Origin: Thermoplasma volcanium GSS1
Lineage (GTDB): Archaea; Thermoplasmatota; Thermoplasmata; Thermoplasmatales; Thermoplasmataceae
NCBI RefSeq assembly: GCF_000011185.1
Contig: NC_002689.2
Location: 310,001-374,000 of the forward strand
Direction: 5' to 3'
DNA length: 64,000 nucleotides
The notes under the pieces: model-generated
What the model saw: only the letters and a program-made list of their open reading frames with translations
What the model was told of the DNA's origin: nothing
Databases searched by the model: none
In this document: positions 43,069 to 58,801 of the stretch, piece after piece
How the letters are laid out: each line of letters opens with the position of its first letter
Numbering within the stretch: position 1 is the stretch's first letter
Made by a program: the position numbers and the translations under genes

Positions 43069-43785
43069 ATGCGAAGCAAAATGGACGATAAGGTATTTTA
43101 TGCATTGGTTACAGCAGTTGTGGTCATAGGTGGTATAGGCATAGGCGTAGCTTATTCGTATACAAGTTCACATCCAGTGACGGTACAGGCTACAGGCCCA
43201 TACTATCTTACTATGGTGGTCACACCAAATAACCCATACCAAATAAATGCTACGTTTGAGCACAGGCAGCCGTCCTACTTTATTGTAGGGCCGAATAATA
43301 CACTTGAATCTGCAGCTACAATAAATCTGCCAGCCCACAGAGAAATCATATTGACAATAATAGACTATGATTCCGGCCCAACGCCTAACATAGGCCCAAC
43401 AGGTACATCGAACAATACCACGTACACTAAGGTCATTGGGACTGTAGGGAACGTTGAGTATGTTTATAACTCCACTATACCTGTCTCTTCCTATTCCAAG
43501 AATACTACTCAGATACAAAAGCCAGAAGCTATAAGCCAGATACCTTGGTATGGAAATTCAAGCTGGGGCTATAACATAACGCACACCTTTACTATATTGA
43601 GCGGTTCAACAATACTTGTCAACATTCCAAGCTGGGGCGGATCAACAACCGTAGCCTACCTTTACCTCAACAACACCGGTACCTACAACTGGCAGTGTTT
43701 TGTGCCTTGTGGTTACGGTAACGATGGCTGGGGTGCCGCTATGGTTACCGCAGGTTGGATGACCGGCACAGTAAACGTTCAGTAA
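43069..43785 (+). CDS. Membrane-anchored cupredoxin with CuA-like Cys pair
   Basis: 238 residues: an N-terminal membrane anchor or signal, an Asn/Thr-rich extracellular linker, and a C-terminal cupredoxin barrel. The copper-site residues seen are H172 (ITHTF), C210 and C214 (QCFVPCGYG), and M225 or M231. The C-x3-C-G spacing is that of CuA in oxidase subunit II, but the CuA His after the second Cys is Asn (N218). It could be a degenerate CuA or a blue-copper site. The start may be ATG 43081, giving MDDKVFY. First gene of the cupredoxin/polyferredoxin cluster. Confidence 0.72.
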   Translation: MRSKMDDKVFYALVTAVVVIGGIGIGVAYSYTSSHPVTVQATGPYYLTMVVTPNNPYQINATFEHRQPSYFIVGPNNTLESAATINLPAHREIILTIIDYDSGPTPNIGPTGTSNNTTYTKVIGTVGNVEYVYNSTIPVSSYSKNTTQIQKPEAISQIPWYGNSSWGYNITHTFTILSGSTILVNIPSWGGSTTVAYLYLNNTGTYNWQCFVPCGYGNDGWGAAMVTAGWMTGTVNVQ

Positions 43786-43789
43786 ACAG

Positions 43790-45256
43790 ATGTGTATGGA
43801 TAAGAGAATTTTTTATATTTTTTATATATTATCAATTTTATTTCTAATTTCGTCCTTTATATTGCCATACAAAAAATTCATCTTTGTTGATACGGATGCG
43901 ATAATGTACGTTATTTCTATATTATCACTTATTTCCCTCTTTATGATAATCTCATCTCTAAAATTACGTTGGAAGCAAATAAATCTTTACTCTCTTTCTT
44001 TTTTAATGGTTGTCTACATCCTATCTGGATGGATACTTTTTGGGTATTCCGATTTTCCTTTAATTGTAATAGCTATACTTTTATTTTCTGCTTACTATAT
44101 TCACTTTCTAACTGACATTGAATGGAAGAAGGTCCGCTTGCCCGCTTTTTACATTACTCTATTTATCATGTTTTATATCGGCGGCATTATTCAGATCCCG
44201 CTGCCAAATAATGCACCTATAGCAGTTGATTCGGCGCTTTCTGTGTTCACCGCGATGGGGGCAAAAGTATCGCTCCTAGACTCCGGCGGAGTATTTGTTA
44301 TATCGAAGAACGTTGTTGTGTTGATGAGTCCTTGGCTTCTGTTGATGTTTGTTGCCCTCTCTTCTCTAGTAGCGGAAAATTACTATCAAATCATATCGTA
44401 TGCCTCAGGAGCCGGAAACGCAATTGGTTCTGTAGTATATGGCTTAACAAGTGCGTTCAGTTGCCAATGTGAAAGTTATATATCTCTTCTGCCAGCTCTG
44501 GCGGCTGTGATAATTGATACTGTCCTCTTACCTGTGGTCTTTTTAAGCCTTTTTCTCTTAATCTTTACGTATATTTTTGTCTCAATGTATTACAAGAAGG
44601 GCAAGCACGTTTCGCTATTTTCCTCGGACCTAGAAGGCGGATATAGGAAATTAGCGATTTCATTCTATGTAACAGTATTATGTTTGATACCTGCGTTAGA
44701 CAGCATACTTGTAGGTATAGGGTATGAGAAAAACTTGATCTTCTTCTTCGTTTCTGGCATGGGAATGGTTCTAGAAGGATTCGTGTTATCGATTCTGCTG
44801 ACGAGGTTCACATCGTTTAGTTATAAGTCAACATTCCTTGCACTCTTATTTTCATTGCTTGGTTTAATCCTCTCTTTCCTCTGGTACTACCCAAATGCCA
44901 CTTATTTTGCATACTATCAGCCTGCAGGATATGGTTTAATGTCTTTCCTACAGCTCTTGGCGGGAGTTTTTGTAGGTTTGGGCTACTCGTTATATAAAAA
45001 TAGATACCTGTTTCTTGAATACATAACAGTTGCATATAGCATATTACCTTTAGCTATTTTCTACCTATCTAATGTTGCTGTTTATAACTTATGGGTACGT
45101 TTCCCGCTTGAGTATGTAACGCTCGCCACTCTTTTTGAATGGGTATCTATGCTTCCATTGATGTGGTTTTCTACCCACCTCTCGCTTAATAACATAAAGT
45201 ATAGCGAAGGGAGTAAAGTAATAGTATCGACGAGAGGTGAAGATGTACGCTCGTAG
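43790..45256 (+). CDS. Polytopic membrane protein of unknown family
   Basis: 488 residues with about 12-13 hydrophobic spans and few charged residues. A Cys-x-Cys pair (AFSCQCESYISLLPA) lies between spans. I recognise no family. It begins 4 bp after the cupredoxin stop and precedes the polyferredoxin by 26 bp, so all three are probably co-transcribed. It might be the transmembrane quinone or heme/copper-handling partner; that is inference from position. Confidence 0.65.
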   Translation: MCMDKRIFYIFYILSILFLISSFILPYKKFIFVDTDAIMYVISILSLISLFMIISSLKLRWKQINLYSLSFLMVVYILSGWILFGYSDFPLIVIAILLFSAYYIHFLTDIEWKKVRLPAFYITLFIMFYIGGIIQIPLPNNAPIAVDSALSVFTAMGAKVSLLDSGGVFVISKNVVVLMSPWLLLMFVALSSLVAENYYQIISYASGAGNAIGSVVYGLTSAFSCQCESYISLLPALAAVIIDTVLLPVVFLSLFLLIFTYIFVSMYYKKGKHVSLFSSDLEGGYRKLAISFYVTVLCLIPALDSILVGIGYEKNLIFFFVSGMGMVLEGFVLSILLTRFTSFSYKSTFLALLFSLLGLILSFLWYYPNATYFAYYQPAGYGLMSFLQLLAGVFVGLGYSLYKNRYLFLEYITVAYSILPLAIFYLSNVAVYNLWVRFPLEYVTLATLFEWVSMLPLMWFSTHLSLNNIKYSEGSKVIVSTRGEDVRS

Positions 45257-45282
45257 CTGAAGCTTTATCAATTGAAGTTGTG

Positions 45283-47232
45283 ATGTCTTTTGTACTGATA
45301 TATTTTATAAGGATATCCCACCTAAAAGGAACGCTGTCATACTTCGAATTATTCATCCTAGCAATGATGGCTTCTATGTTTTTCTCCCTAATACTATTAT
45401 TTTCATGGCCTCTTACCTTTAAATTGGTTGAGGACGCCATCGACATCTCTATGTTGGCAATGGGCCTAATACTAGTTTACTATGTATCGAGAACAGGAAA
45501 TAAATCTGATTTAAAATTCAAAAGCATACATATTTTGCCTTTGCTGGTAGTTTTCAACGAGGTTTTAATGTCCATATTTCTATACCAAGCACTATATCAT
45601 CGCGAACCTATAACAATAAACAATCTATTATCTGTGTTTTCAGCGAGCATTTCCAGCTATCTTTTCATACTGCCAATGGAAATTGAGATGATTTTTTCCA
45701 TATTGTTTCTAGAGAACGATAGGCTTAAAAAGATCGCTTTTTCTTCAATCGCGGGCATCTCACTTTTCAATCCTGCCATAGTGCCATCGCGTGCATTATT
45801 TTTGTCTGGAACTATTTACTCAGCCATTTCTATGGTTATCTTTATGATCATCATCTTTGAGGAGATAGCTAGAAGGTTTGATACGATGAACTATGGAAGG
45901 ATACGAATGCTAGTCATTCTATTCCTTATATTTACGCTCTCCTCAGCAGGTATACTCTTAGGTGATATCTACGTTAAATCACAATACTATTGGCTCCTGG
46001 CAGTATCTATGCTCTCTGGCATGTATTACTATCTTTACTATCTGAACAGTACTTTATTACGGAACGGTAAGCCGGGCTGGGTAAATAACAGATACAATAT
46101 GTTTTACGTACTCGGGCTATCGTTCGCAAGCGAATGGCTTATCTCGGCTGCTATAGAATTTATATCATCCTCTTCAGTGCGTGGTACGCTTGGGTTTCTA
46201 ACGTCGTTTGGAATTGAGCAGGCCTCAAGCCTCAGTCAATACCTTGTTTACGGCCTATATGTATTCGGGTCCGTTACGAACAACTACGTTTTCTTGCTAG
46301 TCATGGGATCTGAGATGATAGCGCTTGTGATTTTTAGGATGCGATCTCTGAAATGGAGAGAAAAGAAATGGAACTTAGCTATGGCGATAGCTGCCTATGC
46401 TCTTTATACCATCTTCTGGCCTAACTTTGCTCCAGCGTCCTATTACTCAAAGGTACCGTTGTGGGGTAACGTTGGGAGTCTTGGGCCTGTCTATCCAGGG
46501 ATATTGTTAGCCTTAATCGGCAGTTACGTATTGTACGCCATTTTGGCCCTGCTATTCGGGAGAAGAAGTTACTGTAGCACATTATGCCCCTCGGCTGTAA
46601 TGTACGGGGGGACTCTTGGTCAGGCAATGATAAAGTATAATTATACTGCACCATTAAGCCGAAAAAATATAGGGAGCAGGTTTAAGGGATATTTGTACCC
46701 TATTATAACGTCCTCATGGATACTCATATTAATTGCATCGTATATTTCCTATAGAATATCTGTAACAGGCAACGACGCAGTCTCGATCTACGGCATCGAT
46801 CCTGCTATATTTTATTCGTATATAGTTTGGAACGTCATGTGGTATTTATTTTTTATATCTATACCGCTGATCGGAATGAGCCCATGCAGGCGATACGGTT
46901 GGTGTACCACCGGGACATTTGTCGGATTTTTCAGCAAAATTGGATTCTTTAGGCTTAAGGTAAGAGACCCATCCATTTGCTTGAAGTGCGAAACTAAGGC
47001 TTGCGCAACAGCATGCGAAGTTGGCGCAGGCGATCTGCCAGGCCAGTTTATAAAGCAAGGATATTTCAAGAGCGCTAAATGTGTAGGATCCGGTTCTTGT
47101 GTGATAGCTTGCCCTTACAATAATATATACTTCTATGACATACGCAGCTTCATTTCCGATAGACTCTCAAAATTTAGAAAAAAGGAAGAGGGAGAAACTC
47201 ACCTAGATCTTTCTGTAGATCGCATCAGGTAG
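45283..47232 (+). CDS. NapH/NosR-like membrane polyferredoxin
   Basis: 649 residues: a long N-terminal multi-span region, then a NapH/CcoG-like core with Cys pairs YCSTLCPSA and PCRRYGWCTTG. A C-terminal 2x[4Fe-4S] ferredoxin follows (CLKCETKACATACE; CVGSGSCVIACPYN). Such proteins pass electrons from quinol to a periplasmic or extracellular acceptor. Here the adjacent cupredoxin is the obvious candidate. The frame includes GTG 45280; ATG 45283 is taken. Its end overlaps the convergent crotonase gene by 34 nt. Confidence 0.78.
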   Translation: MSFVLIYFIRISHLKGTLSYFELFILAMMASMFFSLILLFSWPLTFKLVEDAIDISMLAMGLILVYYVSRTGNKSDLKFKSIHILPLLVVFNEVLMSIFLYQALYHREPITINNLLSVFSASISSYLFILPMEIEMIFSILFLENDRLKKIAFSSIAGISLFNPAIVPSRALFLSGTIYSAISMVIFMIIIFEEIARRFDTMNYGRIRMLVILFLIFTLSSAGILLGDIYVKSQYYWLLAVSMLSGMYYYLYYLNSTLLRNGKPGWVNNRYNMFYVLGLSFASEWLISAAIEFISSSSVRGTLGFLTSFGIEQASSLSQYLVYGLYVFGSVTNNYVFLLVMGSEMIALVIFRMRSLKWREKKWNLAMAIAAYALYTIFWPNFAPASYYSKVPLWGNVGSLGPVYPGILLALIGSYVLYAILALLFGRRSYCSTLCPSAVMYGGTLGQAMIKYNYTAPLSRKNIGSRFKGYLYPIITSSWILILIASYISYRISVTGNDAVSIYGIDPAIFYSYIVWNVMWYLFFISIPLIGMSPCRRYGWCTTGTFVGFFSKIGFFRLKVRDPSICLKCETKACATACEVGAGDLPGQFIKQGYFKSAKCVGSGSCVIACPYNNIYFYDIRSFISDRLSKFRKKEEGETHLDLSVDRIR

Positions 47233-47924: not shown

Positions 47925-48554
47925 TTGAGGCAAAATAAGAATCCAGTTGAAGCGTTAATCGAGGTAGAAAGGAGTGATTGTTGGGTAACTAATCTTGTTC
48001 TCGATAGAGATAAGGATGCAAAAATAGAAAGGTTGAGAATTGGTGAATTGACGACGATCCACATGGTTAAGCCAACCATGGACAGGCGGGCTTTGTTCAA
48101 CGATCTTAAAAAGTACCCGGGTATAATACTAAAGGCAAACCTTGGTGGAAAGGATTCTATCTGGGTTGAAGGGAAGAGCTGTGCTTCCTGCCGATTACTT
48201 GAATCTTTCAATATAATAGTGATCGGAGAAAGATCCATCGGTTTCGATAAAGTTAGATACAAAATCATTGCACCATCAAGAAATGAGCTTAATAAAGCTA
48301 TAAGAAAACTGAAGGAAGAGGATTTAAACGTAATAGTTTTATCTATATCTGAGTACAATAAAGTAGAGTTAACACCTAGGGAAAAGGAGATTATAAATGC
48401 CGCTTTCAAACTCGGCTACTTCGATATAGATAGGCAAATATCTATGAAGGACCTTGCCAAGAATTTTGGCATAAAGACTGCATCGATATCCGATGTTATG
48501 AGGCGTGCGCTCAAGAAGATAGTGATGGAATACCTGGAAGACTCGATCAGCTAG
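47925..48554 (+). CDS. HTH_10 (Bat-type) transcriptional regulator
   Basis: 209 residues. The C-terminal HTH_10 domain is LTPREKEIINAAFKLGYFD through FGIKTASISDVMRRALKKI, the family of the haloarchaeal bacterio-opsin activator. The N-terminal sensor half has cysteines C19, C86 and C89 (KSCASC), which could bind metal or sense redox state. TTG at 47925, about 27 bp after the TATA box, is the likely leaderless start. It probably controls itself and the cupredoxin cluster through the shared palindrome. Confidence 0.82.
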   Translation: MRQNKNPVEALIEVERSDCWVTNLVLDRDKDAKIERLRIGELTTIHMVKPTMDRRALFNDLKKYPGIILKANLGGKDSIWVEGKSCASCRLLESFNIIVIGERSIGFDKVRYKIIAPSRNELNKAIRKLKEEDLNVIVLSISEYNKVELTPREKEIINAAFKLGYFDIDRQISMKDLAKNFGIKTASISDVMRRALKKIVMEYLEDSIS

Positions 48555-49065
48555 TTTTTTCAAATGTTAGGTACGCTTCAACCCGCGCTTCTGAACCGAT
48601 TACGGCGCTTGGTATAAATGGTGATTGCCATTTGAGATTGAAATCACCGGTGTTTATCTTCCCAATAACCCTGACGGATATGTTTTTTAGGGAATATGAA
48701 AGCAGAAAAAGGTCAAATTTTAAAGTTTTCTCTATATCCTTTATTTTCACATTTACCTCTACTGTATTTGTAAAATAGTTCTTTAATTTCACATTTCGGA
48801 CTGTACATAATATCTCCGGGTACTTCTTGCAATTGAAATAGTTTTTACCTCTTAGATTTCTATCCCTCACTGAATTACCAGTTTCTAAGCTTTCGCTGTC
48901 GATATCCAGCTCTGCGTAATCGACGCATAAGTCTCCGCATGTTTCAATGTATCCACCAAAAGTGTTGAACTTACCCACTACCTTAGATATCACAAGGTGG
49001 TCGATCGTGAAGCTTATCTGCGATTTTGCTTTGTTTAGTGTTAGTTTCGATAAAGACCTCTCCAT
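48547..49065 (-). CDS. YceI-family lipid/isoprenoid-binding protein
   Basis: 172 residues with the YceI lipocalin-like pattern SQISFTIDHLVISKVVGKFNTFGG, IDSESLETGNSVRDRNLRG and YPEILCTVRNV. Family members bind polyisoprenoid chains such as quinones. No signal peptide is seen, so it is probably cytosolic here. A TATA box (49085-49096 region) lies about 26 bp before the ATG. A quinone-related role would suit the neighbouring bc complexes, but that is inference. Confidence 0.85.
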   Translation of the reverse strand: MERSLSKLTLNKAKSQISFTIDHLVISKVVGKFNTFGGYIETCGDLCVDYAELDIDSESLETGNSVRDRNLRGKNYFNCKKYPEILCTVRNVKLKNYFTNTVEVNVKIKDIEKTLKFDLFLLSYSLKNISVRVIGKINTGDFNLKWQSPFIPSAVIGSEARVEAYLTFEKTS

Positions 49066-49225: not shown

Positions 49226-50023
49226 ATGCGGAGGTGTCATGACACGACAGAAGAAAAGAAAAATGCAAAATGTAAGAATCAATCTGAAAACGACGTGGTA
49301 AACGATCCTAGTAGACGAAACTTCATAAAAGCCATGGGTATAATATCAATTGCTGCTGTGGCTGGCCTGTCTCTTCGTGGCCTTATACAGAATATAATAC
49401 CACCTCAAGAAGTTGTTAGTACGGGCTTTCCGACTTTAACTCTTGTTAGCCAAAAGACTGGTGCGCCAGTAAAGACCAGCGATCTCCAGGTGAACTCGCC
49501 CGAGATAGTACTTTTTGACTACCCATTGCAAAATGAGCCAAATTTCTTGCTAAGGCTCGGAAATTCCAGTGGACAGGATATACAAATAAAGCCGGTTTCT
49601 GTAAAAATACCGGCAACAGGCAAGACGTATACATCCCCTGGCGGAGTTGGCCCTTACAAATCTGTTGTTGCTTCTAGTGCTATCTGCCAGCATCTTGGAT
49701 GTGTGCCGCCGGAGATACACTATTACCCACCAGGTACGCCCATTCCAAGCACTAGCATAAGCGGATCATCCAATCATGGCCTTATACACTGCAACTGCCA
49801 TGGGAGTACGTACGATCCACTAAACGGTTTTTCGGTTGTAACGGGTCCTACGACACATCCATTACCAAGCGTCGTCTTATCGTATGATTCATCGACTGAT
49901 ACATACAAAGCTGTATCCATGGTCGGGCCTACAATTTATGGGCATACTAACGACCTAAGCGGCGGCAATCCTGTAAGCGGTACAAGCACAGATGTTGTAA
50001 ACGAAGGCGTTCCGAGCCAGTGA
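49226..50023 (+). CDS. Rieske iron-sulfur protein 1, Tat-type
   Basis: 265 residues. A Tat signal/anchor (SRRNFIKAMG, then a hydrophobic stretch) precedes the Rieske domain with CQHLGC (154-159) and CNCHGS (189-194), the [2Fe-2S] ligands. It pairs with cytochrome b 1 downstream (10-bp gap) as a bc-type quinol oxidase. The start is ATG 49226, about 28 bp after GCATAAAC. A GTG ahead of VNDPSRRNF is an alternative. A GGAGGTG at 49229-49235 points to a different-frame ATG with only 20 codons. Confidence 0.92.
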   Translation: MRRCHDTTEEKKNAKCKNQSENDVVNDPSRRNFIKAMGIISIAAVAGLSLRGLIQNIIPPQEVVSTGFPTLTLVSQKTGAPVKTSDLQVNSPEIVLFDYPLQNEPNFLLRLGNSSGQDIQIKPVSVKIPATGKTYTSPGGVGPYKSVVASSAICQHLGCVPPEIHYYPPGTPIPSTSISGSSNHGLIHCNCHGSTYDPLNGFSVVTGPTTHPLPSVVLSYDSSTDTYKAVSMVGPTIYGHTNDLSGGNPVSGTSTDVVNEGVPSQ

Positions 50024-50033
50024 GGTGCAAAAT

Positions 50034-51647
50034 ATGGAGGAAAAGAAACTCGAAGATTATGAAAATATCGTTGAAATTATAAATAAACCTGAGCCGCTCC
50101 CCAGGAGAGTTCCAGATTACATGAGAAAAGCCGGGGGCATATGGTACTGGACGGGGGCGCTTACAATGTTCGCTTTTCTATATGAGGTTGTCACCGGCAT
50201 AATTTTGCTCTTTTACTATCAGCCATCCAATGCTTATACTAGCACTGAAACATTTCTTCATTCGGTACCGTATGGTGAAATAATCCTAACGACACATCTC
50301 TATGGTGCCTACATAATGATAGCACTTGTTTACATACATCTTTTAAGAAACATCTTTGTTGGAGCATACAAGAGACCCCGCAGGGATCAATTCCTTTCAG
50401 GAATATTGCTCCTGTTGCTCACTCTTGGCGTTGGTTACTTCGGTTATTCCCTCAGCGGTGATGTACTATCAGCTGATGCTACAGATGTAGGAAGAGGAAT
50501 AGCACAGGGGTTCCCCTACATAGGCAATTATTTGATGGAAATTATATTTGGCAACGGTACTCAAACATCACTCTTTCACCGTTTGCTTGCATGGCACATA
50601 CTGTTGGCTGGCCTCATAGCCGTATTAATTGCTGCACACTTCTTCCTTGCAGAAGCAAGGACGATAATGCCGAAGAGATCTGAATCTAATTACAGGGTCC
50701 CGGCCATTGATAAGGAAAAGCCAGATTATAAGCCCTGGTATCCATATAATATGCTATATATGGTGGAGCTTGGCTTCTTCTCGGTTGCGCTTATATTTAT
50801 ACTGCCATCGCTTGCTGCACTCGTCCCTGGAGTACCAATGCTGTTTTCACCGTTCCCACAGCTCCCTCCAGATAATCCTGCTGCAGCTGCCTTGCCGGCA
50901 TATCCTCCTTGGTTCCTCCTGTTCATGTACAAGGAACTGGACTTCACATTCGCACAATCTATGGGCCCGTTCTGGGCTACGGTCCTGTTCGCTGGGCTCC
51001 CCCTCGCTTACCTTATCCTCCTTCCGTACATTGATACCAGCATTTCCCTTAAGATATCAGAAAGGCCGATATTTAATGGGCTCGCAATAGTGGGCATTCT
51101 TTATCTGATTGGGCTATCCGTATTGGGTGCTCTAACTCCAGGTCAACCAATACCGACTCTGGATGCAGCTGCAATCTTCATTGTACCGTTGATCATTGTT
51201 TTGCCTTTATCGTACTATATCGCAAAGTTGTATCGTACAGGCAAAATAAATAATGTACATATCGGTGTTATAGGTACGGTGCCTGTCATCGGTTTCTTTG
51301 CCTTTGAACTAGGTTCTCTACTTCCAGGTTATTTCAGGGGATACGGCGGCATATACTTAGAGGCATCCATATTCATGGCAACAGTACTCGTACTTATTTT
51401 CCTCGTTCTTATGAAGGTTGAAGGCTACTTTAAGTCAACTACCCCCAAAAAGCCGATGAGCAAGAGATCGTACATACTGGTGTCAGCAATTCTTGGCTTT
51501 TTCACCTTATTCCTTGCAACTATTGTTTCTACGATGAACCCTACATCAATAACTGATGAGGCGTTCTATGCTATGGGTATTGGTTTTATATTCATAGCAT
51601 TAGGAACTATTACAAAAATATATAGAAAAACAGCATACAACGAATAA
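50034..51647 (+). CDS. Cytochrome b 1 of a bc-type complex
   Basis: About 537 residues. Two heme pairs are visible: H-x13-H in LTTHLYGAYIMIALVYIHLLRN and H-x13-H in AWHILLAGLIAVLIAAHFF. The Qo-site PEWY motif is replaced by PPWF (AYPPWFLLFMYK), so the usual acidic residue is missing. The C-terminal part has further spans, giving a b6 plus subunit-IV-like fused length. The start at ATG 50034 is behind AGGTG. It ends three bases before the convergent prpB. Confidence 0.92.
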   Translation: MEEKKLEDYENIVEIINKPEPLPRRVPDYMRKAGGIWYWTGALTMFAFLYEVVTGIILLFYYQPSNAYTSTETFLHSVPYGEIILTTHLYGAYIMIALVYIHLLRNIFVGAYKRPRRDQFLSGILLLLLTLGVGYFGYSLSGDVLSADATDVGRGIAQGFPYIGNYLMEIIFGNGTQTSLFHRLLAWHILLAGLIAVLIAAHFFLAEARTIMPKRSESNYRVPAIDKEKPDYKPWYPYNMLYMVELGFFSVALIFILPSLAALVPGVPMLFSPFPQLPPDNPAAAALPAYPPWFLLFMYKELDFTFAQSMGPFWATVLFAGLPLAYLILLPYIDTSISLKISERPIFNGLAIVGILYLIGLSVLGALTPGQPIPTLDAAAIFIVPLIIVLPLSYYIAKLYRTGKINNVHIGVIGTVPVIGFFAFELGSLLPGYFRGYGGIYLEASIFMATVLVLIFLVLMKVEGYFKSTTPKKPMSKRSYILVSAILGFFTLFLATIVSTMNPTSITDEAFYAMGIGFIFIALGTITKIYRKTAYNE

Positions 51648-55506: not shown

Positions 55507-56346
55507 ATGGCTAATACGCAATCCGAAGACGAACCTAAAGACAGGCTTAGGCGATCTTTTCTAAAAGGTGCTGCTGTTTCACTTTTTTCGTTAGCTTTAG
55601 GGAGTCTATCAATCGAAAAATTTTTTGTTCCTACAACTAGAAATGTTCCGGTGTCATCATACAATGGTAAATATCCTACTGCAATACTTGTAGATCCAGA
55701 TGGTACGCCAATAAAGGCTTCGGAGATACCTTATGCGCTGCCCGCCAGTTCCTCATACCCAATACTGGTATTTAACTATCCACTACAGGATGAACCAAAC
55801 ATCTTAATAAGATTGAGGAACGTTTCAATACCGAATGCAATACATATAAATAATTCTACTGGCGGCGTAGACAGTATAACTGCTTATAGCGGGATATGCC
55901 AACATCTCGGCTGCACAGTCCCTCTTTTAGACTATCATCCCGGAAATTCAATCCCATTTGAGGCGCAGCTGATTGGCTACACTAAGAAGAATTGGCCAGA
56001 ATACGGCCTGCTCTATTGCAAATGCCATGGGAGTCAGTACGATCCAATACGTGGGCCTCATAATCTTTATAATTCCGGACCTGCCCCAAGCCCTGCAAAC
56101 CATTCTTTACCACAAGTTTTGTTCTATCACGATTCTGCTACAGACTACCTCTATGCTATTGGTATGAATCCAGTGAATGCAGTTATAAGAACGCATCTTT
56201 GGCAACCAAATGGTGAAACCTACGGCCCAGAGGTAGTAGACGAAAACCTCTCTGGAGGTACAGAATTACCTTTTGACAACACTCTTGGGCATTATAAGGC
56301 TACAGTTGTATCAAGTTCAAACTTCAAGTGGTCAGGGAGGTTTTAG
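55507..56346 (+). CDS. Rieske iron-sulfur protein 2, Tat-type
   Basis: 279 residues. A Tat signal (LRRSFLKGAAVSLFSLALG) precedes the Rieske ligands CQHLGC (131-136) and CKCHGS (171-176). It differs throughout from Rieske 1 but shares YPLQ(D/N)EPN(I/F)L. The leaderless ATG lies about 28 bp after the TATA box. It heads a five-gene operon with cytochrome b 2 and three small membrane proteins. Confidence 0.92.
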   Translation: MANTQSEDEPKDRLRRSFLKGAAVSLFSLALGSLSIEKFFVPTTRNVPVSSYNGKYPTAILVDPDGTPIKASEIPYALPASSSYPILVFNYPLQDEPNILIRLRNVSIPNAIHINNSTGGVDSITAYSGICQHLGCTVPLLDYHPGNSIPFEAQLIGYTKKNWPEYGLLYCKCHGSQYDPIRGPHNLYNSGPAPSPANHSLPQVLFYHDSATDYLYAIGMNPVNAVIRTHLWQPNGETYGPEVVDENLSGGTELPFDNTLGHYKATVVSSSNFKWSGRF

Positions 56347-56348
56347 AA

Positions 56349-57524
56349 ATGACGGAGAAAAACGAATACGATCTCACAAAGCTCACGAAGCCAGACGAAG
56401 AGTTTGAGGGTTCATACAAGATTGTATTAAGGCCAATAAGCAAAAAGGAGTTTAGGCTTGATTATTGGACGGGTTCTTTCCTTATGGCTGCAGTTGCTTA
56501 TTTGGCGGTATCAGGGATGCTTTTATTTTATTATTACCAGAGCGGCCATCCATTTTCATCAACTATATCTATTATAAGTAGCGTACCTTTTGGATACGCT
56601 TTATTAACTTCACATCTGTACATGGCGTATGCCATGATAGTGCTCGTATACGCACATATGCTTAGGAACTATTTCGTTGGCGCATATAAAGGAAAGTGGA
56701 GGTGGCTGCAGTGGATATTGGGCGTTATACTTTTCATACTTGTATATACGACAGCAATCGTAGGCTATATGCTGACCTACACTTACATAAGTGTAGCAGC
56801 AACGCATGTCGGTGAGTTGCTTATAGAGAGAAGTATAATAGGTAGGCTATTACCTGGTCTTGCAAACTGGCTTGTGTCTATACTTATTGGAGACGGTACA
56901 ACTTCTCAGACCTTTTCCCACATACTGGGTCTTCATGTTATGATATTATCAACTCTGATCATAGTTATAGCCTTTGTTCACTTCTTCCTGTTCGAGAAAT
57001 CCGGTCCATATGGTGTAAAGTATGATAAGAATGAAAAGATGGTTCCTTGGTTCCCAGTTAATCTTCTCTATACAATTTTCCTGTCATTGATGTTCATAGG
57101 AGTGATACTTATATTTTCTGCCGCTTTTCCGCAAGTGATTCCTGCTGCATATGGCTTACCCGTCTATGGCACGCTGCCATTCCCTGATTGGTACATCCTT
57201 CCGGTTTACAAGCTTATGGATACTGCTGGATACGGGCTTACTACCGGCGGAGTTCCCCTGGTTATAGTCTTTTTCCTGTTCCTTCTTATATTACCTTTTA
57301 TAGATAGATATAGTGGATCGCATCCGCTCGACAGACCTATGATAACAGCCTTTGGGATATTCATAATTATAGGTATACCTGTAATTGCCCTCTGGGGGGC
57401 AAGCCAGCCAGGATTAACTCAGACTAGACTTCTTACGATGTTTATGTGGTGGGGTTTAACGTTTGTTTCGATAGCTACAGTTTATGCTATGCGATTTGCT
57501 AGAAAGGATGGTGAGGAGAGGTGA
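56349..57524 (+). CDS. Cytochrome b 2 of a bc-type complex
   Basis: About 391 residues. Heme pairs are H-x13-H (TSHLYMAYAMIVLVYAHMLRN) and H-x14-H (LHVMILSTLIIVIAFVHFF). The Qo motif is PDWY (PFPDWYILPVYK), keeping an acidic residue, unlike cytochrome b 1. It is shorter than b 1 because extra C-terminal spans are absent. The start at ATG 56349 follows GGGAGGTT. It overlaps the next gene (GTGA). Confidence 0.92.
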   Translation: MTEKNEYDLTKLTKPDEEFEGSYKIVLRPISKKEFRLDYWTGSFLMAAVAYLAVSGMLLFYYYQSGHPFSSTISIISSVPFGYALLTSHLYMAYAMIVLVYAHMLRNYFVGAYKGKWRWLQWILGVILFILVYTTAIVGYMLTYTYISVAATHVGELLIERSIIGRLLPGLANWLVSILIGDGTTSQTFSHILGLHVMILSTLIIVIAFVHFFLFEKSGPYGVKYDKNEKMVPWFPVNLLYTIFLSLMFIGVILIFSAAFPQVIPAAYGLPVYGTLPFPDWYILPVYKLMDTAGYGLTTGGVPLVIVFFLFLLILPFIDRYSGSHPLDRPMITAFGIFIIIGIPVIALWGASQPGLTQTRLLTMFMWWGLTFVSIATVYAMRFARKDGEER

Positions 57525-58053: not shown

Positions 58054-58277
58054 TGGACATACGAAGACTAGCTAAGGAGAAAAGAAGATCCTTTGGAAAG
58101 GTTGTTGCAGGAATAGTGCTCCTAGTAATAGCTATACCTGTATTTCTTGACTACAAGGTGTTTCCAGTGATTAACAGTGAGATAGGTCCGCATCAAATTG
58201 GAAGTTGGCTTGCACTACTTTTCTCGTTCATTGGGTTTATACTTATAATTGTAGGTATGGGTGAAATGGATATTTAA
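58053..58277 (+). CDS. Small two-span membrane protein
   Basis: 74 residues: a basic N-terminus (MDIRRLAKEKRRSFGK) then two membrane spans. The ATG overlaps the previous stop (TGATG). Last gene of the bc 2 operon, overlapping the convergent regulator by 4 nt. Confidence 0.62.
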   Translation: MDIRRLAKEKRRSFGKVVAGIVLLVIAIPVFLDYKVFPVINSEIGPHQIGSWLALLFSFIGFILIIVGMGEMDI

Positions 58278-58801
58278 CTATTATCTTTTTCCAGTCTTTT
58301 AAGCATGTCTTTTTCACAATTTGGGCAGCATACAAGATAAGTTCTATTTTTCCATTTTACTGAAATCGGATCACCATGTATTTGGTTGCCACAATAATCA
58401 CAATACAGCGTTATGTTAGATAAAATGGCCTTCCCTTCTTCGACGGTGTCAGATATCCACACTTGATCATATTGAAAATCGTAATCCAGAGCAGATTTCG
58501 ATAATACGAGTATGCGTTTTCCATTAGATAGTTTAAAATTGTAATAAATTAAATCATCAGGTATATGGACATCATCTGGCGTTAGGGCAATAATTTTCTT
58601 TTCTGATTCTTCGTAAGATGTTTTTATTGTGTACTTTTTAATAATGCCGTTTCTTTCAAGATCCTTTATTATCTTTGAAACGGTGTTTCTTCCAATTCCG
58701 GTTCTTTCAGATATCTCTTCAACGCTAGACCTTGAATCGTCTATAAGTTCCCGAAGGACTCTAGATTCTAGGTTGCTGAGGTTGCGTTTTTCTGGATGCA
58801 T
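58274..58801 (-). CDS. Lrp-type HTH regulator with C-terminal TRASH metal-binding domain
   Basis: 175 residues. An N-terminal AsnC/Lrp winged helix (LRELIDDSRSSVEEISERTGIGRNTVSKIIKDLE), a middle domain, then a TRASH domain with C134-x2-C137-x20-C158-x3-C162. This layout matches archaeal copper-responsive regulators such as Sulfolobus CopT. It converges on the bc 2 operon. The TATA-like GATTAATTATC about 28 bp upstream lies within the inverted repeat 58821-58835, which suggests autoregulation. The metal could be copper or another soft metal. Confidence 0.82.
   Translation of the reverse strand: MHPEKRNLSNLESRVLRELIDDSRSSVEEISERTGIGRNTVSKIIKDLERNGIIKKYTIKTSYEESEKKIIALTPDDVHIPDDLIYYNFKLSNGKRILVLSKSALDYDFQYDQVWISDTVEEGKAILSNITLYCDYCGNQIHGDPISVKWKNRTYLVCCPNCEKDMLKRLEKDNS

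Follow-up and report, generated by a model that had tools for sequence, protein, structure and literature searches.

The CuA domain of cytochrome c oxidase subunit II, as in the Thermus ba3 oxidase, is a cupredoxin whose complete set of ligands is His, Cys, Glu(O), Cys, His, Met, and rusticyanin, sulfocyanin and AcoP are membrane-anchored or extracytoplasmic cupredoxins of acidophile respiratory chains. Complexes of the SoxL2/SoxC type, with a Rieske protein and a cytochrome b, are found in the Sulfolobales. Among the proteins tied to copper respiratory enzymes, CcoG is a cupric reductase with two 4Fe-4S clusters and an assembly factor of oxidase (PMC7558416), and the copper importer CcoA uses MxxxM/HxxxM motifs (PMC8406296). 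Here we describe a locus of Thermoplasma volcanium GSS1 that recalls each of these systems and differs from all of them. It lies in a stretch of 64,000 nucleotides (the window), which covers positions 310001-374000 of the single contig of 1,584,804 bases that makes up the genome (NC_002689.2), and it comprises three genes, labelled CUP (cupredoxin), TM12 (12-span protein) and NAPH (NapH-like Fe-S membrane protein), together with a Rieske/cytochrome b pair downstream. We propose that CUP works with complex III and that TM12 and NAPH are accessory proteins for respiratory copper centres, a reading which, taken as a whole, we give about an even chance of being correct.

Linkage of CUP to a Rieske/cytochrome b pair

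CUP (43069..43785, 238 amino acids, membrane-anchored), TM12 (43790..45256, 488 amino acids) and NAPH (45280..47232, 650 amino acids) follow one another on the + strand (43069-47232) with intergenic gaps of 4 bp and 24 bp, and the three are linked in 5/5 Thermoplasma genomes, in agreement with the single operon assumed in the initial annotation of the window. That annotation took the three genes for a separate electron-transfer chain leading from quinol to a copper protein, with no partner enzyme nearby. Its statement on the oxidase holds, as COX1 (PF00115) is absent from the whole T. volcanium genome and hence also from the surroundings of the locus, but it missed a Rieske/cytochrome b pair 2 kb 3' of NAPH (49226-51647). 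The first gene of this pair (49226..50023, + strand) encodes a SoxL2-like Rieske Fe-S protein with a twin-arginine translocation (TAT) signal, which scores above the gathering score of PF00355 and matches the SoxL2 model TIGR03171 with E=4.7e-69, below its cut-off. The second (50025..51647, + strand) is separated from the first by 1 bp and encodes a SoxC-like cytochrome b of the same complex III, which matches PF13631 above the Pfam cut-off (E=1e-49) and the SoxC model NF041076 below its cut-off (E=1.2e-111). Both proteins are therefore alike to those of the Sulfolobales complexes, yet below the equivalog cut-offs, and their companions here are CUP and TM12.

The link between CUP and this pair extends far beyond Thermoplasma. 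Across 117 genomes of the order, each of the 28 best CUP matches (at least 296 bits) shares its strand with a cytochrome b gene at most 7 kb away; the distance is about 1 kb in 23 cases, leaving space for a Rieske gene, and about 6.5 kb in the five Thermoplasma. When all 104 CUP matches are considered, including weaker ones and some two-domain paralogues, 48 are at most 10 kb from cytochrome b. The order CUP-Rieske-cytochrome b-TM12 was found in seven relatives (L036, L037, L040, L042, L044, L045 and L051) and is the usual operon in Thermoplasmatales other than Thermoplasma, so the linkage of the three genes is kept in Thermoplasma and rearranged elsewhere, with CUP adjoining Rieske-cytochrome b, not NAPH, in most relatives. 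Since CUP is linked to Rieske/cytochrome b across relatives, its most likely role is to serve complex III, as copper subunit or as electron carrier; we hold this with good confidence. Quinol would be oxidised by cytochrome b and the Rieske protein, and the Rieske centre would then hand electrons to the copper of CUP on the outer face of the membrane. A route from quinol to a copper protein, as annotated initially, is thus retained by way of the neighbouring Rieske/cytochrome b pair and not by way of the NapH-like protein, and the idea of a separate chain made of the three genes is given up, as CUP goes with Rieske/cytochrome b while TM12 and NAPH are common to oxidase operons.

Fold and candidate copper site of CUP

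As a single sequence, CUP has no Pfam or NCBIfam match and only a chance match in a PDB sequence search. A profile built from 39 CUP homologues, which range down to 35% identity to CUP, has the CuA domain of Thermus ba3 oxidase subunit II as its best PDB sequence match (E=3e-4), with the His and the C-x3-C-G motif in register. The AlphaFold2 model of CUP (predicted local distance difference test, pLDDT, 80) was compared with solved structures using Foldseek, and matched cupredoxins including ba3 subunit II with probability 1.0; nearly all of the best matches have the cupredoxin fold, among them CotA laccase, AcoP, rusticyanin and ba3 subunit II. By profile and by predicted fold, CUP is a cupredoxin. 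In addition, its N-terminal strand resembles sulfocyanin.

With the CuA domain CUP shares a His before the C-x3-C-G loop and a Met near the end, and residues 210-215 read C-F-V-P-C-G, with N218 at the place of the CuA His. The replacement of this His by Asn had been noted initially, and it is correct for CUP itself, but the column holds P/L/A/S/N/T/V or a gap among the 39 homologues, so that Asn is not conserved; a second CuA His was found in none of the 39. The residues H172, C210, C214, M225 and M231 are invariant in 39/39 sequences, along with W208 and W230, and the former five are candidate copper ligands. The residue between the two Cys is V/A/I/D/S among homologues instead of Glu, there is a second invariant Met, and the Met is displaced relative to the CuA Met because the loop after the C-G is about 10 residues longer; the full CuA set is thus incomplete. 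Nor does CUP have the type 1 set of two His, one Cys and one Met that would be expected of a relative of rusticyanin, sulfocyanin or AcoP, since it has one invariant His, and two invariant Cys in place of one Cys and two His. As read from the conserved residues, the predicted site is neither CuA nor type 1, and we infer that it may be a variant, CuA-like copper centre. A direct profile comparison of CUP with the local COX2 was weak (6.5% probability, E=0.006), with the H and C-x3-C-G aligned. The possibility that CUP is an ordinary oxidase subunit II with its oxidase encoded elsewhere, considered with the initial annotation, is ruled out by the lack of COX1 in the genome and by the incomplete CuA ligands.

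Paralogues of CUP were seen in other contexts. In the genome of L191, presumably that of Cuniculiplasma divulgatum, a paralogue is clustered with a second cupredoxin-like gene and, by eye, an apparent heavy-metal ATPase (L191:7812-14433). The paralogues in L192, L195, L202 and L205 consist of two fused cupredoxin domains (405-508 amino acids) and lie directly 5' of a Rieske gene, which is followed by cytochrome b where the contig extends far enough.

Distribution and neighbourhoods of TM12 and NAPH

Homologues of TM12 occur in 89/117 genomes of the order. Among 293 genomes sampled from the phylum they were confined to the family of T. volcanium itself, and the survey of 117 genomes showed them in a second family of the order also. 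Where COX1 or CUP is present (89/117 genomes), TM12 is found in 88/89 and NAPH in 82/89; where neither is present (28/117), each is found in 1/28, the one genome being 72% complete. This pattern is partly phylogenetic, as two families have nearly the whole set and the rest of the order has none of it. Two genomes more than 90% complete, G078 and G097, whose genus-mates have the set, lack all three of COX1, TM12 and NAPH, and the five Thermoplasma genomes without COX1 retain TM12 and NAPH beside CUP.

In many relatives the operon reads COX2-COX1-cupredoxin-haem O synthase-TM12, with NAPH alongside, and the Ferroplasma acidarmanus genes for TM12 and NAPH lie side by side in divergent orientation and adjoin COX1, sulfocyanin and COX2. 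The two genes also accompany haem-copper oxidase operons without this CUP, and NAPH is far from the CUP-Rieske-cytochrome b operon in most relatives. As TM12 and NAPH are equally found with oxidase operons lacking CUP, neither of them belongs exclusively to a CUP electron chain. Homologues of NAPH extend to the Sulfolobales, where in Metallosphaera yellowstonensis the gene adjoins a COX1 gene; NAPH might correspond to FoxG, encoded in the fox cluster for iron oxidation.

Sequence features of NAPH and TM12

NAPH is composed of a Met/Glu-rich membrane half (residues 1-360, about 10 helices) and a NapH-like Fe-S half (residues 361-650). The match to TIGR02163 (NapH/MauN) spans residues 410-617 and includes one CxxxCP, and at E=5.9e-8 and 32.5 bits it is far below the cut-off of 213.05. 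The 11 invariant Cys of the C-terminal half form one CxxxCP, one Cx5C in place of the second CxxxCP of NapH/MauN, a four-Cys cluster motif and a motif of three Cys, C601-x5-C607-x3-C611. Two [4Fe-4S] motifs had been annotated in a NapH-like protein; the kinship is borne out, but the second motif is one Cys short, and since position 604 is non-Cys in 42/42 homologues, one cluster would be incomplete or otherwise ligated. No CcoG model was among the 25 listed of the 32 NCBIfam matches. CcoG, likewise a membrane Fe-S protein of the NapH/CcoG kind tied to copper respiratory enzymes, may serve as functional precedent for NAPH, although NAPH differs from it in the additional 10-helix Met/Glu-rich half and the incomplete second cluster motif; by the tests made, NAPH is nearer to NapH in sequence and a member of neither family.

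In the membrane half, 12/19 Met, 5/13 Glu and 9/328 other residues are shared by at least 90% of the 42 homologues, and the enrichment of Met in the conserved set is highly significant (p=4.5e-11). The conserved Glu (E94, E136, E194, E285 and E345) and Met are located in helices of the AlphaFold2 model (pLDDT 81; predicted template modelling score, pTM, 0.86), for which Foldseek found no match with E below 1 among solved structures. Three pairs of Met are spaced i,i+4 (M29/M33, M133/M137 and M342/M346; at least 85% of the 42 sequences, p=0.004), and such MxxxM pairs recall the CcoA/CTR copper importers, to which NAPH has no sequence or fold relation. Moreover, stand-alone proteins of the N-terminal domain without the Fe-S half are encoded at L042:6179-7084, L188:11874-12779 and L048:3971-4801, divergent from full-length NAPH or, in L048, from a NAPH C-terminal half; all three keep every Met checked and both internal Glu, and one of them keeps E194.

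TM12 has 12 hydropathy peaks and no Pfam, NCBIfam or PDB sequence match, which agrees with the annotated protein of 12-13 spans and no family. Over 57 sequences the motif C225-Q-C227-E228 (CQCE) and N197 are invariant. A relationship between TM12 and the membrane half of NAPH was rejected (hhalign probability 2%). The CQCE motif and the conserved Met/Glu set of NAPH suggest, as sequence features, that the two proteins handle a soft metal.

Proposed roles and alternative explanations

From these data we favour the reading that TM12 and NAPH stand outside the electron transfer of the CUP chain, and that they may well be, at roughly balanced odds, biogenesis factors shared by respiratory copper centres, namely CUP and the CuA/CuB of haem-copper oxidases. 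Electrons would enter NAPH at its cytoplasmic Fe-S half, which would reduce Cu(II); the resulting Cu(I) would be conducted or held within the membrane half with its Met/Glu lining, and TM12, through its CQCE, would pass copper to the extracytoplasmic CUP or to the CuA of COX2.

Several points weigh against this proposal. T. volcanium has no haem-copper oxidase to accept electrons from CUP; two cytochrome bd subunit I genes are present. In the relative G001, which we take to be T. acidophilum, the NAPH frame is broken at a run of seven A, leaving two overlapping ORFs (open reading frames), and that of TM12 shifts near residue 71 (L032, 7165-10380); CUP, Rieske and cytochrome b, by contrast, are intact. 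These frameshifts reflect either decay, slippage or sequencing error, so both genes may be dispensable in T. acidophilum or the reads may be wrong. Furthermore, copper binding and reductase activity are predictions from sequence, and the Met and Glu in the NAPH helices could serve another role.

Alternatively, NAPH could act as a quinol dehydrogenase alongside the Rieske complex, with electrons reaching CUP by way of the NAPH Fe-S clusters, TM12 or both, as would fit the NapH-like C-terminal half of NAPH, the adjacency of the genes in Thermoplasma and the general view that NapH proteins carry electrons from quinol. We regard this as unlikely, because NAPH stands apart from the CUP-Rieske-cytochrome b operon in most relatives and is retained where a genome has COX1 and lacks this CUP, a quinol-oxidising Rieske/cytochrome b pair already adjoins CUP, and the clusters of NapH usually lie on the cytoplasmic side, opposite to that needed for CUP; in addition, none of the His in the membrane half is conserved at the 90% level in the 42 homologues, which leaves no ligands for haem b. 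Decidedly improbable is a role of NAPH and TM12 together as a redox module for energy coupling, translocating ions or protons by the membrane Glu and feeding or draining electrons of aerobic copper enzymes: the five conserved Glu, the many helices and the lack of a match of NAPH to a known fold are compatible with it, but the conserved set is dominated by Met, TM12 has no cofactor motif, and TM12 adjoins haem O synthase, an assembly gene. This same neighbour in oxidase operons could mean that NAPH and TM12 insert another cofactor (haem A/O or CuB only) and not the copper of CuA or CUP, to which we give little credit, as both are kept beside CUP in the five Thermoplasma genomes without any COX1. 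That CUP has lost its copper, with the two Cys forming a structural disulfide in a non-redox subunit of complex III, agrees with the second CuA His missing in 39/39 homologues, but is the least probable of these, since the five candidate ligands (H172, C210, C214, M225 and M231), unchanged across the 39 sequences, fit a metal site better than a disulfide alone, and the L191 copy is clustered with the apparent ATPase.

Extending our preferred reading, in which TM12 and NAPH serve respiratory copper centres, we tentatively suggest that NAPH might represent a new class of membrane protein, an Fe-S cupric reductase fused to a Met-lined Cu(I) conduit without a known fold. Together with TM12, the putative copper inserter with the CQCE, which this survey showed in Thermoplasmatales alone, it would form an archaeal machine dedicated to reducing copper and inserting it into CuA-type centres of respiration. 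Among these would be a cupredoxin site of a new kind, made up of one His, two Cys and two Met, which would fill the place of the missing carrier beyond complex III. This stronger form is possible rather than probable.

Other genes around the locus

Between NAPH and the Rieske gene lie an enoyl-CoA-hydratase-like gene, an HTH_10 transcription regulator of the bacterio-opsin-activator type (47925..48554, + strand; PF04967, E=1.2e-16) and a YceI-like (polyisoprenoid-binding) gene (48547-49065), whose position is kept in Thermoplasma. The HTH_10 gene is the probable regulator of the CUP/TM12/NAPH module. Its family adjoins the CUP loci L049, L056, L193, L194 and L197 and, distantly, TM12-NAPH in loci of the Ferroplasma type. 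A second pair of Rieske (279 amino acids) and cytochrome b (398 amino acids) genes at 55507-57524 is of a shorter type, which genomes lacking CUP have as well, and just 3' of it there is a gene for a winged-helix regulator (58274-58801) that carries TRASH, an archaeal domain for sensing heavy metals.

Implications

The electron route from complex III to oxidase without cytochrome c has been called unsolved for Cuniculiplasma (PMC5155288), and the cupredoxin encoded with Rieske/cytochrome b is a concrete candidate for the carrier after complex III in many Thermoplasmatales. Homologues of TM12 and NAPH are present in most of the Thermoplasmatales genomes that encode a copper respiratory protein, though TM12 has no family name. 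In a review of 2020, CopZ of Archaeoglobus is the only archaeal cupric reductase described (PMC7558416); if the role proposed for NAPH is true, a second, membrane-bound type of archaeal cupric reductase would fill this gap.

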